A DNA stretch of 44,529 nucleotides from positions 1 through 44,529 of the forward strand of contig CACOIH010000011.1 of the NCBI GenBank assembly GCA_902627245.1, given 5' to 3'. Source of the DNA: an uncultured Alphaproteobacteria bacterium (GTDB lineage: Bacteria > Pseudomonadota > Alphaproteobacteria > HIMB59 > GCA-002718135). A program made the translations under genes and the position numbers. A model generated the notes under the pieces. It did not search any database. It was not told the DNA's origin and saw nothing but the letters and a program-made list of their open reading frames with translations. Shown piece by piece: positions 5,483-12,593 of the stretch (positions within the stretch are counted from its first letter, which is position 1; every line of letters begins with the position of its first letter).

Positions 5483-6658
5483 ATGAAACAAAATAATTGG
5501 TTTGATCCGTTCCATATCCAATCCCATCTCTCCGAAGAGGAATTAGGAATTCAAAAAAATGTAAGACAATTTTGTGAAAAAGAACTTAGACCTTCAGTTG
5601 TTAAAATGAATAGAAATCATGAGTTTAATATTAATCTTTACCCTAGGTTTGGGTCACTCGGTGTTTTAGGCCAAACAGTTAAATCTCATGGAGGCTCAGG
5701 TACATCAAATCTTGCTTATGGTCTTGTTGCTTATGAATTTGAAAAAATTGACAGTAGCTACAGATCATCAATTTCCGTTCAATCTTCATTAGTAATTCAT
5801 CCTATAAATGAGTTTGGCTCTAAAGATCAAAAAGATAAATATTTACCTGAACTAATTAATGGTGAAAAAATTGGATGTTTCGGATTAACTGAAAGTGAAG
5901 CTGGATCCGATCCTTCATCGATGAAAACAACATTTAAAGAAACTAAAGATGGCTATATTTTAAATGGTTCAAAAAATTGGATTACAAATGCACCTATTGC
6001 AGATATATTTATAATTTGGGCTCTAGATGAAAATAAAGATCATAAAAGTATTAAAGGTTTCATATTAGAAAAAAATTTTAAAGGATTAAAAACATCTCAC
6101 ATCGAAAATAAAACAAGTCTAAAAATTAGTCCAACTGGACAAATTACTTTAGATAAAGTTCATGTGCCAAAAGACTCGCTTCTAGAAAATACTAATGGTT
6201 GGAAATCAGTATTTAGTTGTTTAAATAAGGCAAGATTTGGAATTAGTTGGGGTGTGTTAGGTGCAGCAACTGAATGTTGGATGATTTCAAAAGAATATGT
6301 AGAAAATAGAATTATGTTTAAAAAACCACTTGCATCCAATCAATTAATTCAAAAAAAATTATCTGAGATGCAAATTGAGATTAATCTCGGATTATCATCA
6401 TGTTTATTAAGCGCGAAAGCCTTAGATGACGGTAAGGATATTATCAATGCAATAAGTATTTTAAAAAAGAATAATTGCCAGAAGGCTCTTGATATTTGTA
6501 GAGATTCCAGAGATATGCTTGGAGCTAATGGATTAATTGATGAATATCATATTATGAGACATCTGGTTAATTTAGAAACAGTTAAAACGTATGAAGGTGC
6601 AGAAGATATTCATTCACTAATATTAGGCAAAAATCAGACAGGTATTTCTAGTTTTTAA
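5483..6658 (+). CDS. gcdH: glutaryl-CoA dehydrogenase (acyl-CoA dehydrogenase family)
   Basis: GcdH oxidises and decarboxylates glutaryl-CoA to crotonyl-CoA in lysine, tryptophan and aromatic-acid degradation, passing electrons to ETF. The 391-residue protein resembles that subfamily throughout: DSSYRSSISVQSSLVIHP (90-107) with the substrate-binding Arg94, CFGLTESEAGSDP (132-144), NWITNAPIAD (165-174), CLNKARFGISWGVLGAA (246-262), and TYEGAEDIHSLILG (369-382) in which Glu371 is the expected catalytic base. The start at 5483 gives the family's usual NxWFDPF-type opening. A TRAP transporter follows on the same strand after a 105-nt gap that seems to hold its own promoter, so co-transcription is uncertain. 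Confidence 0.92.
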   Translation: MKQNNWFDPFHIQSHLSEEELGIQKNVRQFCEKELRPSVVKMNRNHEFNINLYPRFGSLGVLGQTVKSHGGSGTSNLAYGLVAYEFEKIDSSYRSSISVQSSLVIHPINEFGSKDQKDKYLPELINGEKIGCFGLTESEAGSDPSSMKTTFKETKDGYILNGSKNWITNAPIADIFIIWALDENKDHKSIKGFILEKNFKGLKTSHIENKTSLKISPTGQITLDKVHVPKDSLLENTNGWKSVFSCLNKARFGISWGVLGAATECWMISKEYVENRIMFKKPLASNQLIQKKLSEMQIEINLGLSSCLLSAKALDDGKDIINAISILKKNNCQKALDICRDSRDMLGANGLIDEYHIMRHLVNLETVKTYEGAEDIHSLILGKNQTGISSF

Positions 6659-6763: not shown

Positions 6764-7870
6764 ATGAAAAAAAACTTTAAAAGACGTGACTTCCTCAAAA
6801 AAGCAGGAATAGGTGGAGCAGCTGCGGCTGCGGTATCATCATTCCCTGCACCAGCTATTGCGGCTGATAGGATTGAAGTCAATTGCGTTGCTACATGGGG
6901 AAGAGGTTATCCTGGTCTAGGTACAGGTGCAGAAGCTGTTTCTCAAAGAATATCAGACTTAAGTGATGGACGTATTATAGTAAATCATTTTGCTGGTGGA
7001 GAGAGAGTTGGACCACTAGATGTATTTACAGAAGTTACATCAGGTAACGCTCAAATGTATAATAGTGCTGACTACTATTGGGTTGGACAACATCCTGGTT
7101 GGGGATTTTTCGCAGCAGTTCCATTTGGAATGATCGCAACAGAAATCAACGGATGGATAAGACATGGTGGTGGACAAGAGCTATGGGATGAGCTTGGTGA
7201 TGAATTTGGATTAAAAAACTTTATGGCAGGAAACTCTGGAGTTCAAATGGGTGGATGGTTTAATAAAGAGATTAATTCACCGGATGACTTTAAAGGTCTG
7301 AAAATGAGAATTCCTGGATTAGGTGGAATGATGATGTCAAAACTTGGTTTATCTGTAGTTGGTGTACCAGGTGGACAAATTTATGAAAACTTAATAAATG
7401 GAACAATTGATGCAACAGAGTGGGTAGGACCATGGAATGATGAAAGATCAAGATTCTATGAAGCTGCGAAATATTATTACTGGCCTGGTTGTCATGAGCC
7501 AGGAACATTGATTACACTTGGTTGCAATAAATCTTGGTTAACAAGCTTAAGTAAAACAGATCAAATGATTATTGAGCATGCATCAACAGTTCAAAATGAA
7601 AGAATGTTGACTGAATATAATGCTAACAATGGTGCTGCGTTGCAGAGACTTGTAAATGATCATGGTGTAGAACTAAGAGAATTCAATGAAGATGTTATCG
7701 ACGCAATGGGTGAAGCAGCAGAAGAACTGTATGAAGAACTTGCTGAAGGTAATGAACTTACAGGAAGAATTCTTGCAAGCTTTAAACAGTCAAGAAGTGA
7801 AATAAGTGGCTGGTTGAAAAAAGCTGATTCAGCATTCTTTACTCAGAGAAACAGAGTACTAGAAAGCTAA
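6764..7870 (+). CDS. TRAP transporter periplasmic substrate-binding protein (2-oxoacid/lactate-type)
   Basis: This extracytoplasmic protein captures an organic acid for the DctQM permease encoded next. Residues 1-33 form a Tat signal: KRRDFLKK (6-13), a hydrophobic Ala-rich segment and a probable cleavage after APAIA (29-33). The mature part keeps the signature GLKMRIPG (178-185), with Arg182 expected to salt-bridge the substrate carboxylate. It also has GTIDATEWVGPWNDE (213-227) and YYYWPGCHEPG (237-247), a pattern shared with the alpha-keto acid protein TakP and the calcium-lactate binding protein rather than C4-dicarboxylate DctP. A monocarboxylate or 2-oxoacid ligand is inferred, not shown. 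The upstream gcdH could hint at a glutarate-related acid, but that is weak. Confidence 0.88.
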   Translation: MKKNFKRRDFLKKAGIGGAAAAAVSSFPAPAIAADRIEVNCVATWGRGYPGLGTGAEAVSQRISDLSDGRIIVNHFAGGERVGPLDVFTEVTSGNAQMYNSADYYWVGQHPGWGFFAAVPFGMIATEINGWIRHGGGQELWDELGDEFGLKNFMAGNSGVQMGGWFNKEINSPDDFKGLKMRIPGLGGMMMSKLGLSVVGVPGGQIYENLINGTIDATEWVGPWNDERSRFYEAAKYYYWPGCHEPGTLITLGCNKSWLTSLSKTDQMIIEHASTVQNERMLTEYNANNGAALQRLVNDHGVELREFNEDVIDAMGEAAEELYEELAEGNELTGRILASFKQSRSEISGWLKKADSAFFTQRNRVLES

Positions 7871-7914: not shown

Positions 7915-8838
7915 ATGAACATCACAAATATTTCTAAATTTTTTTCAATTAGCCTAATATTAGTTGTATTTGCTTTTTTAATTAATAATTATCTTACATT
8001 CGCGGGTGATTGGCCTGGCCCATTTACACTAAATCAATCTATAAATATTTACTCATCAATTCAATTTTTACTTTATGTTTTTGCAATTATTATTCCAATA
8101 ATTTTTATCAATTACAATAAAAATTTAGATAACCTTACTCTTGCCAATAATTTAGAAAAACTTAATGATTATATAATAAGATTTGGTTTTTGGTCTGTTC
8201 TTATCATTGGGATAGTAGACGCAATTATTTCATTATTAATTATTGAGGGGTTTCTTGAACAGCTTATAGGTAAAAGCTGGAATATAAAATTTTCAAACAA
8301 TTCTTTTAGAGCTCCTTATATACATTTTCCACTTTTATTTTTGTCTTTGATATTTGCATATTATTTTAAAGCTCTTAATTTTTATTGGCTAGCATTTCTA
8401 GTTGTTATAGCAGAGTTTCAAATAGTTATCTTAAGATTTGTTTTTTCATATGAACAAACCTTAATGAGTGATTTAGTAAGATTTTGGTATGGAAGTTTAT
8501 TTTTATTTGGAAGCTATTATACTCTAATTAAAGATGGGCATGTACGTGTTGATGTTTTGTATACAAATTTTAGTGAAAAAAATAAAGCAAGAGTCAATCT
8601 CTTTGGAAGTTTAATATTAGGTATTCCACTTTGTTTGACTGTTTTCTTTCTTGGTATGTACTGCAAACAGTGTGTTTTAAATCAGCCGATAATGAATTTT
8701 GAAACATCGCAGAGTACTCAAGGAATGAATATTAAATATTTAATGGCAGGGTTTTTAATAATTTTTGCTTTAACGATGTTAATTCAATTTACAATTTACT
8801 CATTAAGAAGTTTAGAAGTAATAAGAAAGAATAAATAA
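7915..8838 (+). CDS. dctQ: TRAP transporter small permease (DctQ family), long form
   Basis: DctQ partners with DctM in the inner membrane. The family core is in the C-terminal half: DLVRFWYGSLFLFGSYYTL (186-204), the hallmark DGHVRVDVLY (207-216) and SQSTQGMNIKYLMAG (265-279) before the last membrane helix. At 307 residues it is much longer than common DctQ proteins (about 160-200). The extra about 150 N-terminal residues hold several further hydrophobic segments (near 8-26, 48-66, 90-112, 137-150). The start ATG is 44 nt after the binding-protein stop, just past the hairpin. Its stop overlaps the dctM start by one base (TAATG). The long form resembles permeases paired with TakP-type binding proteins. 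Confidence 0.87.
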   Translation: MNITNISKFFSISLILVVFAFLINNYLTFAGDWPGPFTLNQSINIYSSIQFLLYVFAIIIPIIFINYNKNLDNLTLANNLEKLNDYIIRFGFWSVLIIGIVDAIISLLIIEGFLEQLIGKSWNIKFSNNSFRAPYIHFPLLFLSLIFAYYFKALNFYWLAFLVVIAEFQIVILRFVFSYEQTLMSDLVRFWYGSLFLFGSYYTLIKDGHVRVDVLYTNFSEKNKARVNLFGSLILGIPLCLTVFFLGMYCKQCVLNQPIMNFETSQSTQGMNIKYLMAGFLIIFALTMLIQFTIYSLRSLEVIRKNK

Positions 8839-11480
8839 TGGAATTGTTTTTTCTTTTTTTATTAATTTTTTTAATGGCATTTGCTCTTGCATCTGGGTAT
8901 CCACTAGCTTTTGCTCTTCCAGGTTCAGCGATCATTTCAATTTTTTTAGCAGGTTTAGCAGGATATTTAATTGATGGAAATCCTAACGAATATTTTATTT
9001 CTGATGGACCATTTCAATGGTTAAATGCAGGAATAACAAATTTTAGAGGAGTATATTGGGAAGTTGAAAGAGATACATTGATAGCAATTCCTCTATTTAT
9101 ATTTATGGGAATAATGCTTGAAAAATCTAAAATTGCAGAAGACTTACTTATTAGTATGGGTCAGTTATTTGGGCCTATACCAGGTGGCTTAGGTATATCT
9201 GTTATATTTGTTGGTGCATTACTAGCTGCTACTACTGGAATAGTAGGAGCTACTGTAGTTGCGATGGGTTTAATTTCTCTTCCTGCTATGATGAAGAATA
9301 ATTATAATAAATCTCTTGCGTCTGGTATTGTTTGTTCCTCAGGAACCCTTGGACAAATAATACCTCCATCAATAGTTCTAATAATTTTATCTGATCAGTT
9401 AGCATCTGCCTCTGATGCTGCGGATAACATGAGAATTGAAAATTACCAAAATATTACTGGCTCAACAAATATTCCAAGTCAATTCAGTGTAGATTCAGTG
9501 AGTGCAGGAAATATGTTTTTGGGGGCGTTTCTTCCTGGATTAGTTCTTGTCGGATTATACATGTTATATGTACTTTTTATCGGAGTATTTAAAAAAGAGG
9601 CAGTTCCACCCGTTGAATATGAAGGTAACTATGACAAAGACTTTTTTAAAAGAGTATTTCTCTCTTTGGTTCCACCATTAGCATTAATTTTTGTAGTTCT
9701 TGGTTCAATATTACTTGGTATTGCAACTGTTAATCAAGCAGGTGCAATAGGTGCAGTTGGAGCAGGTGTCATGGGTGGTTATAGATTATATAATAATAAA
9801 TATAAATATACTCCTGCAATATTAACTATACTTTCACTAATTGTAATTAGTATTATTGTTGTAAACTTTAAACTCAATATAAAAAATATTTCAACAACAT
9901 CAGAAATGATAGCTTTAATTATTGCAATTATTGCAGTTATATTTTTATTGATTGGAGTAGTTTGGAGTTTTTGGAGAACTTTTAGAATTAACAATGTCTT
10001 AAAAAATGTAATGATTGAAACAAGTTTAACAACATCTATGGTATTTATAATTCTAATTGGTGCTGCAATGTTAACAGCAGCATTTAGAGGTTTTGGTGGA
10101 GAAGAAATAGTAAAAGATTTTCTAACTAGTTTACCTGGAGGATTTTGGACGCAATTTATTGTTGTAATGGCAGTTATATTTATTTTAGGATTTTTTTTAG
10201 ATTTCATAGAAATTGCTATAGTAGTTGTGCCTATTGTAGCCCCAATATTGTTAGCTGAAACTTCAGCTAATGTTACAGCTGTTTGGTTAGGTGTAATGAT
10301 TGGTGTAAATATGCAAACATCATTTTTAACTCCACCTTTTGGATTTTCGTTATTTTATTTAAGGGGAGTTGCACCTAAATCAATTAAAACTACTGAAATA
10401 TGGAAAGGTGCGAGTGTTTTTATTATTTTGCAATTAGTAGGATTAGGAGTTGTAGGATATTTTCCTCAGTTGGTAAATTATTTACCTTTGAGATCATATT
10501 ATACATCAGAAGTATCACCTCCTCCAATCAATCCAAAACTTCAAGAATGTTTGATTGACTACACTTATGATAAATATGACAAAAACTTTTCAGAATCACT
10601 AATTATTACAGATAAATTAATTAGTAATAATCTCGATTTCTTCCCTGATAATAAGATGAAAAATTTTACTGATATGATTAATAATATAAATCTCTCTAAA
10701 GATTTAATTGATGAGGTAAAATTATCTCGCAAAATTTTTCATGATTACTCATTAAACTATAAACCGCTCCATACTAAAGTTAGAAATATTGAAAAAAATA
10801 TTTTTAAAAAGTTATCAAAGATTGAAAAAATTAAAAAAGAAATTCGACTTGAAACTGAAAATGAAAAAATACAGAAGCTCGAAAATAAAATTATAGAATT
10901 ACAAAACGAAATAGAAGAAATTAGATTAACAATTCCTGTAACATGGAAAGATGAAAATGATAATTTTAATACGATTTTAAAAAATTTTAATAAAACAAAA
11001 TTAAATTATAATAAGTCAGTAGATGGCTCATTTAATGATTTACAAAAATTTATAGAAATATTTGAAAGCTCAGAAAATTTTGCTCTTTTAGAAAATAATT
11101 ACGCTGATTTAATAAACAGTATTAATAAAGAAGAAAAAGAGATTGTGGAAATTATCAAAGATTTTGAAAGATTATTTAATCCTTTTAAAGATACTTCAGA
11201 TATTAAAAAATCATTAAAAAAAGCGCGTAAGTTATTGAAAAAGAATTATGATAAAAAAACAGAAGCTTTAGATTTAATTAATGAATCAAAAAAATTATTT
11301 TTAATTGAAAAAAATTGGAGATTAAAAGGTAGTCAAATTGTTCTAAATGATTTAATTGATTTATCAAACACAGGATCTGAAACTTTTGGTCTTAGAAAAC
11401 AAGATAAGTTAAATAAAGAACAAGCAATATATCTCGCTTCATGCAAATCAGTACATGAAGATATTTCTTTATATTTTTAA
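8838..11480 (+). CDS. dctM: TRAP transporter large permease (DctM family) with C-terminal coiled-coil tail
   Basis: DctM is the sodium-coupled transport subunit in the inner membrane. Residues 1 to about 550 are the membrane part: IPLFIFMGIMLEKSKIAEDL (84-103), PGGLGISVIFVGALLAATTG (115-134), the hairpin motif SSGTLGQIIPPSIVLI (167-182), and the second-repeat counterpart GVNMQTSFLTPPFGFSLFYL (489-508). An insert with two or three extra helices lies around 325-378. From about 560 to 880 the chain becomes hydrophilic and rich in Lys, Glu, Asn and Ile. Its heptad-like stretches (about 630-690) predict a coiled coil. I do not recognise that tail; ordinary DctM proteins are about 430 residues. The stop codon abuts the convergent gene at 11481 with no base between. 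Confidence 0.88.
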   Translation: MELFFLFLLIFLMAFALASGYPLAFALPGSAIISIFLAGLAGYLIDGNPNEYFISDGPFQWLNAGITNFRGVYWEVERDTLIAIPLFIFMGIMLEKSKIAEDLLISMGQLFGPIPGGLGISVIFVGALLAATTGIVGATVVAMGLISLPAMMKNNYNKSLASGIVCSSGTLGQIIPPSIVLIILSDQLASASDAADNMRIENYQNITGSTNIPSQFSVDSVSAGNMFLGAFLPGLVLVGLYMLYVLFIGVFKKEAVPPVEYEGNYDKDFFKRVFLSLVPPLALIFVVLGSILLGIATVNQAGAIGAVGAGVMGGYRLYNNKYKYTPAILTILSLIVISIIVVNFKLNIKNISTTSEMIALIIAIIAVIFLLIGVVWSFWRTFRINNVLKNVMIETSLTTSMVFIILIGAAMLTAAFRGFGGEEIVKDFLTSLPGGFWTQFIVVMAVIFILGFFLDFIEIAIVVVPIVAPILLAETSANVTAVWLGVMIGVNMQTSFLTPPFGFSLFYLRGVAPKSIKTTEIWKGASVFIILQLVGLGVVGYFPQLVNYLPLRSYYTSEVSPPPINPKLQECLIDYTYDKYDKNFSESLIITDKLISNNLDFFPDNKMKNFTDMINNINLSKDLIDEVKLSRKIFHDYSLNYKPLHTKVRNIEKNIFKKLSKIEKIKKEIRLETENEKIQKLENKIIELQNEIEEIRLTIPVTWKDENDNFNTILKNFNKTKLNYNKSVDGSFNDLQKFIEIFESSENFALLENNYADLINSINKEEKEIVEIIKDFERLFNPFKDTSDIKKSLKKARKLLKKNYDKKTEALDLINESKKLFLIEKNWRLKGSQIVLNDLIDLSNTGSETFGLRKQDKLNKEQAIYLASCKSVHEDISLYF

Positions 11481-12593
11481 TTAAACTTTCTCAATATCCA
11501 TAACAACATGGATGTAATCCATTGCATGACCATCAGGTTTATTAGCTACCTCTTCCAAGTAAGAATTGTAAAATTGATCAACAATTTTATTTATTTCTTC
11601 AGGCTTTCTTTTTTCTAAAGCTGTTTTAAAAACAGTTTCAGACCAACTTCTCATAGTTGGTATTAATGTTTCAGCATACTCTCTAGATGTCATACTAGAT
11701 TTGTTATTATTATAATGAACTTTGAAAGGACAATCTGTAAACATTGTTTTACATGACTTAAGAATTAATCCTGATTTTGAAACTGGTGAATTTGGATCAT
11801 CAAATGGTTTTCTAAATTCTTCAATCGTTCTATAATGCTGTGTAAAAGTGGCATTAATAAATTCCTCATTAGTAATGACTCCATCTTTTTCTAAATTTTT
11901 CCAATGTTTAGCAAAATTATTAAACATATTATGGCCACCAGTATTGCCTAAATGCCTACCCTCTTCATCTATACCAAAATTTATACAAATAAATCTTCCA
12001 CCAGAAACTAATTCTTTAGATCTATTTATTAAAATTGTTTCCCAGTCTTTGAGAGCTTGTTTTTTAAATTGTGCTTTTTCATCCTCATTTGAACCAACCA
12101 TATGAACATGATTTTGTATTAGACAAGGTCTTTCTGAAACATAATGCATTGCTGTTGCTGAAAATCCTAATGATAAACTATTATCGCTCATTAATTGATC
12201 ATGAAATCCAGTTCCACAACCATGAACGAATACATTTTCAAATTTTTTTTGATAGGCAAAATCAGAATTACCATGCATACCTTGCATCATCCTAAATAAA
12301 ACTGAAAAATCATTAGATGCTAAATCAGTATATAGTATTTCAATTTGTCTATTATCCCCAGAATTTTTAATCTTTTCAATAATATTAAACCACATTTGCT
12401 GACTTGTGCCGCCATCTGCACTTCCAAAGTCTGCAATTTTTAAGATATCATTTTTTGGTATTGTTTTAAGTGCCTGATCAATTAGGAGTTCCATTTTATC
12501 TATTGCATTTTTTGCGCCGATAGTTTTTTGAGAATAATAGCCCTCTCCTTTCATTGATAAAACAGATTGAGTATTAAGATTAGTATTACTCAT
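11481..12593 (-). CDS. SABATH-like SAM-dependent carboxyl methyltransferase
   Basis: The SABATH family (plant salicylate, jasmonate and related enzymes, with bacterial members) transfers a methyl group from SAM to small carboxylic acids. The 370-residue protein has the N-terminal MKGEGYYSQKT segment (14-24), where plant enzymes bind the substrate carboxylate. It then has the SAM motif IADFGSADGGTS (53-64, the plant form being IADLGCSSGPN), the YTDLASNDF acidic motif (88-96), and LGFSATAMHYVSERP (142-156), which matches the plant SSYSLxWLS active-site segment. A C-terminal region with helical character follows. The substrate is unknown. It lies 38 nt after parC on the same strand, with no visible terminator between, and may be read through from parC. 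Confidence 0.72.
   Translation of the reverse strand: MSNTNLNTQSVLSMKGEGYYSQKTIGAKNAIDKMELLIDQALKTIPKNDILKIADFGSADGGTSQQMWFNIIEKIKNSGDNRQIEILYTDLASNDFSVLFRMMQGMHGNSDFAYQKKFENVFVHGCGTGFHDQLMSDNSLSLGFSATAMHYVSERPCLIQNHVHMVGSNEDEKAQFKKQALKDWETILINRSKELVSGGRFICINFGIDEEGRHLGNTGGHNMFNNFAKHWKNLEKDGVITNEEFINATFTQHYRTIEEFRKPFDDPNSPVSKSGLILKSCKTMFTDCPFKVHYNNNKSSMTSREYAETLIPTMRSWSETVFKTALEKRKPEEINKIVDQFYNSYLEEVANKPDGHAMDYIHVVMDIEKV

Follow-up and report, generated by a model that had tools for sequence, protein, structure and literature searches.

The large membrane subunit (DctM) of a TRAP transporter from an uncultured alphaproteobacterium carries a tail of ~335 residues beyond its last membrane helix, and the DctM proteins that share this tail form a single clade. 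We tentatively propose, at somewhat less than an even chance, that the tail is a conserved helical domain on the periplasmic side, belonging to a subfamily of alphaproteobacterial TRAP transporters for 2-oxoacids (TakP-type DctP, extended DctQ and tailed DctM), and that it docks or steadies the binding protein. The window analysed here is a stretch of 44,529 nucleotides, in which the ORF list and Pfam place the three genes of a TRAP operon side by side on the + strand: dctP (6764-7870), encoding a TakP-family binding protein of 368 aa with a twin-arginine-type signal (Pfam DctP, E 7.8e-49); dctQ (7915-8838), encoding a long-form small permease of 307 aa with the Pfam DctQ match at residues 170-291; and dctM (8838-11480), encoding 880 aa in a single ORF.

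Residues 1-544 of DctM (8838-10469) form the membrane body, which matches PF06808 (213 bits, E 8.5e-63, cut-off 23.8) and TRAP permeases in the PDB; the NCBIfam model TIGR00786 scores 252.7 bits, below its cut-off of 268.45. The protein shares with the DctM/SiaM family (PF06808, TIGR00786) its membrane body and the grouping of P, Q and M genes, and differs in adding the C-terminal domain and a two-helix insert. This insert (residues 316-388, 9783-10001), located by hydropathy and alignment, has a counterpart of 67-69 residues in three DctMs without a tail (522-650 aa) and of 9 residues in forms of 457-458 aa. The last hydrophobic peak of the body spans residues 524-542, and the tail proper comprises residues 545-880 (10470-11477). 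The first-pass annotation had reported a long tail after the last DctM helix, which is confirmed within one open frame of 880 codons; compared with the span it gave, 10515-11480, the start lies slightly earlier, near residue 545 (base 10470). Three parts were distinguished on the + strand: a conserved linker (residues 545-575, 10470-10562; mean pairwise identity 0.67 in 32 DctMs) with the motif LVNYLP...PPP.NP.LQ.C and Cys571, a variable part predicted by AlphaFold to be helical (residues 576-845, 10563-11372; identity 0.27), and a conserved end (residues 846-880, 11373-11477; identity 0.51) with the motif G.R.Q ... C...H.DISL.F, which contains Cys869.

An error of frame or the joining of two genes, raised in the first-pass annotation as a possible origin of the tail, is excluded by its presence in frame in homologues across many assemblies. 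Of 61 near genomes, 12 encode the whole DctM with no internal stop, namely its own and 11 of the same genus at 70-87% identity. The tail is also encoded in eleven loci from records titled as MAG or isolate: 10 of them retain 301 or more of 306 tail residues, and the eleventh ends with its contig; short tail matches in two further genomes (G464, G488) are likewise contig ends. Across 21 pairs of seven genes, pN/pS ranged from 0.17 to 0.53 for the tail and from 0.01 to 0.17 for the body, a ratio of 2.8-4.8 in 18 pairs and higher in three, with synonymous change near saturation in many of the pairs. The tail is under looser yet purifying selection. Several irregular copies were also recorded. In the 53% complete genome G445 (L180, 1-1639) the open frame is lost partway through the tail, near its position 203, and G443 contains a loose 65-codon piece of the tail end (L183) plus a whole copy elsewhere. 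Locus L033 (4684-6921) encodes a DctM of 745 aa whose tail is whole but whose membrane body lacks ~135 central residues, and a 749-codon frame in G499 resembles it; this shortened body is either an assembly artefact or a real deletion.

Comparison of 42 tails (7 near, 35 distant) revealed a domain of nearly constant length, 335-345 aa in 41 and 318 aa in one, with a mean pairwise identity of 0.33 (32 DctMs); the conservation profile was drawn from 38 of the 42 rows, four near ones being omitted. Two cysteines, Cys571 and Cys869 in the window, are present in all 42 tails, and in 15 of 32 DctMs they are the sole cysteines of the whole protein. L134 (799 aa), in which the tail is shortened, also has two cysteines there. 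These residues fit an oxidising compartment, and DsbB was found in 9 of the 12 tailed genomes, the three without a detected copy being the window's own (62% complete) and 2 of the 11 others. The tail of the window contains 14% Lys, 11% Asn, 9% Glu and 7% Asp, in keeping with its first-pass description as charged and rich in Lys, Glu and Asn. However, across the 42 tails the content of Lys plus Asn is negatively correlated with locus GC (r -0.92) and that of Ala positively (r 0.93), so the richness in Lys and Asn mostly reflects base composition.

A profile of the tail matched 31 genomes in a sample of 385 Alphaproteobacteria, in 24 of 276 genera, and 30 of the 314 good-quality genomes of the class. 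The tailed frames measure 881-904 codons from stop to stop in 27 of the 31; the other four have 838, 916, 929 and 960. Within its own order, 45 of 162 genomes carry the tail. There were 46 matches, of which the one in G442 (E 7.6e-4) was rejected as spurious, falling in an unrelated 495-codon frame. A draw from the phylum yielded 7 matches in 398 genomes, all in the window's own class, the number of the 398 from outside the class not being given. The window tail had no match in a phage collection, and neither it nor two distant tails had one in a plasmid collection; two plasmid records were searched without a positive control.

In a tree of DctM bodies, a quick build with long branches flagged, the 32 tailed DctMs formed one clade (SH-aLRT 100). 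These derive from 36 loci; the tail genes of L124, L126 and L131 were missed by the ORF picker and are present in the profile searches, and L140 (G442) has none. One genome, G166, encodes a second, diverged tailed DctM (L135, 5545-8205) that keeps both cysteines, its other copy being L109. Among 22 aligned tail-less DctMs, 18 of them from the window's own order, 21 stop 4-7 residues beyond the aligned body and the last is cut by a contig end, which bears out the earlier remark that TRAP permeases normally end soon after the last helix. The tail-less DctMs of 457-541 aa (L014-L031, L144, L145) are 45-49% identical in the body over the stretch matched at the N-terminus, among the loci listed; most of their loci have a TakP-family DctP nearby, and they have no tail and a DctQ of 167-222 aa. 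The gene context hints at vertical inheritance of the tailed operon: a parC cluster occurs in 16 of 36 fetched loci and an arginyltransferase cluster in 9 of 36 (one or two members of each identified by name), and in the window the operon is followed by era, rnc, lepB and a recO-like gene that scores under its cut-off. Two other neighbours were noted. An acyl-CoA dehydrogenase gene (5483-6658, + strand) lies directly upstream of the operon, as in L136, L138, L139 and L142, and is a possible hint to metabolic context. A SAM-dependent carboxyl methyltransferase gene (11481-12593, - strand; PF03492, E 1.6e-32) ends at the dctM stop on the opposite strand, and its cluster adjoins a tailed dctM in five other loci, L110 and L116 being distant.

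The tail is accompanied by an enlarged small permease. The DctQ of the window has ~150 extra N-terminal residues (7915-8409) with, on our reading of the hydropathy plot, about four more hydrophobic segments. A profile of this extension, built from tailed operons, matched 33 of the 385 class genomes, and 30 genomes had both extension and tail. The four mismatches comprise three contig ends and one spurious match: in G168 the tail is present and DctQ lies beyond the contig end, in G067 and G095 the extension is present and DctM is cut at the contig edge, and the match in G250 (E 6.6e-4), in a 39-codon frame with stops, was discarded. In G253 the extension match is on a different contig from the tail. 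Directly upstream of 28 of the 32 tailed DctMs is a DctQ of 307-369 aa, counting rows with more than 100 bits to the window DctQ. The remaining four are two contig-cut loci (L117, L141) and two in which DctQ was uncalled and the extension profile matched at the right place (L121, L125). By comparison, DctQ has 167-222 aa in 18 of 18 tail-less loci, and 183 and 171 aa in two plasmids. Because tail, long DctQ and the DctP motif described below come from a single lineage, finding them together counts as little more than one event. Tail and long DctQ thus make up a fixed set of parts, which is no independent proof of contact.

The binding protein aligns over residues 6-357 with TakP (PDB 2hzk/2hzl, E 3.9e-74) and matches the NCBIfam TAT signal domain (4.6e-05). 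The TakP study (PMC1839085) lists Y100, Q156, R177, E214, W215 and E240 as ligands of Na-pyruvate. All six are conserved in 27 of 27 DctPs, the window included, these being the DctPs among the 36 loci that score above 300 bits to the window DctP; identity at W215 says little because its ligand is the main chain (PMC1839085). Since the six ligand residues are kept, the substrate is most likely a 2-oxoacid. The TakPQM system of Rhodobacter sphaeroides shares the binding-protein family and the six residues, a likeness known from TakP alone. TakP is a helix-swapped dimer through its C-terminal helix (PMC1839085), and dimers of this kind are compatible with the TRAP complex, their second monomer facing upward (PMC9352664). 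The C-terminal region of the window DctP aligns up to TakP residue 351 and extends 11 residues more, and by homology the protein is probably dimeric. Near the C-terminus, RN[RA][VA][LI] is found in 22 of the 27 DctPs of tailed operons, the other five reading as variants. It is absent from all 17 DctPs used for comparison whose C-terminus is complete; 15 of these belong to one order and 2 come from plasmids. TakP, an eighteenth comparison row, lacks its own end. This pattern, which was found by eye and written after viewing the sequences, is a candidate docking point and no more.

The position of the tail was considered in the light of known structures. The body aligns piecewise to the PDB permeases 9pym, 7qe5, 8thi, 7qha and 8y4w over residues 76-184 and 393-545, and weakly over 221-313; in the best structure, 9pym, the piece 393-545 reaches residue 629 of 635. 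The M subunit of SiaQM is N-out/C-out (PMC9971032), the insert 316-388 adds an even number (two) of hydrophobic segments by hydropathy, and the loop before the last helix (489-523) is positive, with 4 K/R and 1 D/E. Together with the alignment, these observations indicate that the tail is probably periplasmic, outside the inner membrane. In HiSiaQM (PMC9352664) the last helix, TM11, is part of the bundle enclosed by the cradle, and the binding protein attaches to the elevator through its C-lobe. By homology, the tail may be seated on this moving domain, next to the binding protein in its docked state.

Structure prediction bears out an unusual charged helical extension. An AlphaFold model of the tail from 11 close sequences is all-helical (mean pLDDT 77.9, pTM 0.67), with a predicted helix of 68 residues (604-671), ~100 A long by arithmetic; of the heptad-like stretches reported earlier, what stands is these predicted long helices. 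Both conserved ends of the tail have low confidence, which would fit packing on an absent partner, or just too few sequences. A full-length DctM model was poor (mean pLDDT 45.5), with an unusable body. The best Foldseek match to the tail model was not significant (E 0.046), and the best VIA alignment (Z 9.4, rmsd 11.5) falls within the helical-bundle background stated for the tool; VIA-align covers Foldseek-ranked chains only, so absence from it is no evidence. Long-helix bundles of the PDB, such as AhlB/AhlC and SMC coiled coils, share with the tail side-by-side long helices alone, and nothing was concluded from the AhlB-type toxins, which are among the fold matches for their long helices. 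In family searches the tail reached no Pfam cut-off, the best match being ArlX (19.4 bits versus 28.7), and NCBIfam searched with the whole DctM gave only PspA at 8.2 bits against a cut-off of 850 and SMC at 17.4 bits against one of 567.35 for this part. The ArlX, AAA_23, SMC and PspA matches were set aside as reflecting coiled-coil make-up. A PDB sequence search with the tail profile gave at best a small-RNA nuclease (E 0.019).

Among the readings of these data we give most weight, short of an even chance, to docking, then to a brace on DctQ and then to an envelope anchor. In the docking model the tail would emerge from the membrane where the last DctM helix ends, a helix that by homology is part of the moving elevator; the Pro-rich linker would lead to the helical part, and the two conserved ends would be tied by a putative Cys571-Cys869 disulfide. 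The arm might then dock DctP on the transporter or steady it there, either from alongside or by extending to the second protomer of a TakP-like dimer, and could in this way affect transport. Against docking, TakP-family DctPs also adjoin tail-less DctMs and so can do without the tail; one lineage inherited tail, long DctQ and DctP motif, which comes near to a single event; and the seat of the tail derives from homology, the full-length model having no usable body. Further points against this model are the low AlphaFold confidence of both conserved ends and the gaps in DsbB detection, in the incomplete window genome and two others. A more specific version, in which the elevator carries a disulfide-closed periplasmic arm that tethers a dimeric 2-oxoacid binding protein as a held subunit, not a free shuttle, is unlikely as a whole. 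The tail might instead pack against the extended DctQ or another DctM and so build a transporter that is larger or oligomeric, making no contact with the binding protein; this is possible though rather doubtful. The nearly complete co-occurrence of tail and DctQ extension, with its mismatches explained, speaks for such a brace, as do the long DctQs upstream of tailed DctMs and the short ones of tail-less loci. Yet in one clade this co-occurrence amounts to about one event, the profile derives from tailed operons, and a 68-residue helix in a soluble arm would seem excessive for a brace.

A role as an envelope spacer or anchor, in which the tail attaches to peptidoglycan, to the outer membrane or to another envelope protein and positions the pump without taking part directly in transport, would suit the length of the predicted helix and a middle part that varies (identity 0.27) while its length is kept. 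We consider this improbable: no peptidoglycan-binding family is among the six Pfam models that touch the tail at E up to 1, and the shortened tail of L134 suggests that exact reach is not essential. Coiled-coil tails are common in cytoplasmic signalling proteins, and the periplasmic side is assigned by homology, which leaves a slight chance for a cytoplasmic regulatory tail. This placement runs against the N-out/C-out topology of SiaM (PMC9971032, as above), the positive loop 489-523, which is as in a cytoplasmic loop, and the two invariant cysteines, which would suit an oxidising compartment. Among the partners named in the first-pass annotation, the long DctQ does accompany the tail and the C-terminal motif of DctP fits, while a cytoplasmic regulator is unlikely because homology puts the tail outside. 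Finally, an artefact or a neutral addition, whether by an error of frame, a joining of two genes or the drift of low-complexity sequence, is scarcely credible. It could draw on the pN/pS of the tail, which is 2.8-4.8 times the body value in 18 of 21 pairs and a larger multiple in the other three, on a composition that follows GC, and on the frame break in G445 and the loose piece in G443, but the tail is in frame in many assemblies, under purifying selection and marked by invariant residues.

The FcbT/mannitol-chloroaromatic group of TRAP transporters corresponds to COG4663-4665. In a full-text literature search, with subscription papers mostly outside its reach, no title or abstract opening among the matches listed described such a DctM domain. 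The first-pass annotation had allowed that the tail might be a standard part of a described, large subfamily. It is standard within an alphaproteobacterial subfamily, while its scores lie below all Pfam and NCBIfam cut-offs and no description appeared among those literature matches. The passages of the review PMC5812351 that bear on DctM assign it 12 helices and mention no domain of this kind; they also state that how dimeric binding proteins work with DctQM remains unclear. Taken together, these results delineate an alphaproteobacterial transporter subfamily, marked out by the tail, for which no family model or description was found in the literature and families searched. A conserved domain fused to the elevator, together with an enlarged DctQ, would provide a removable part with which the question of the dimeric binding proteins may be tested.
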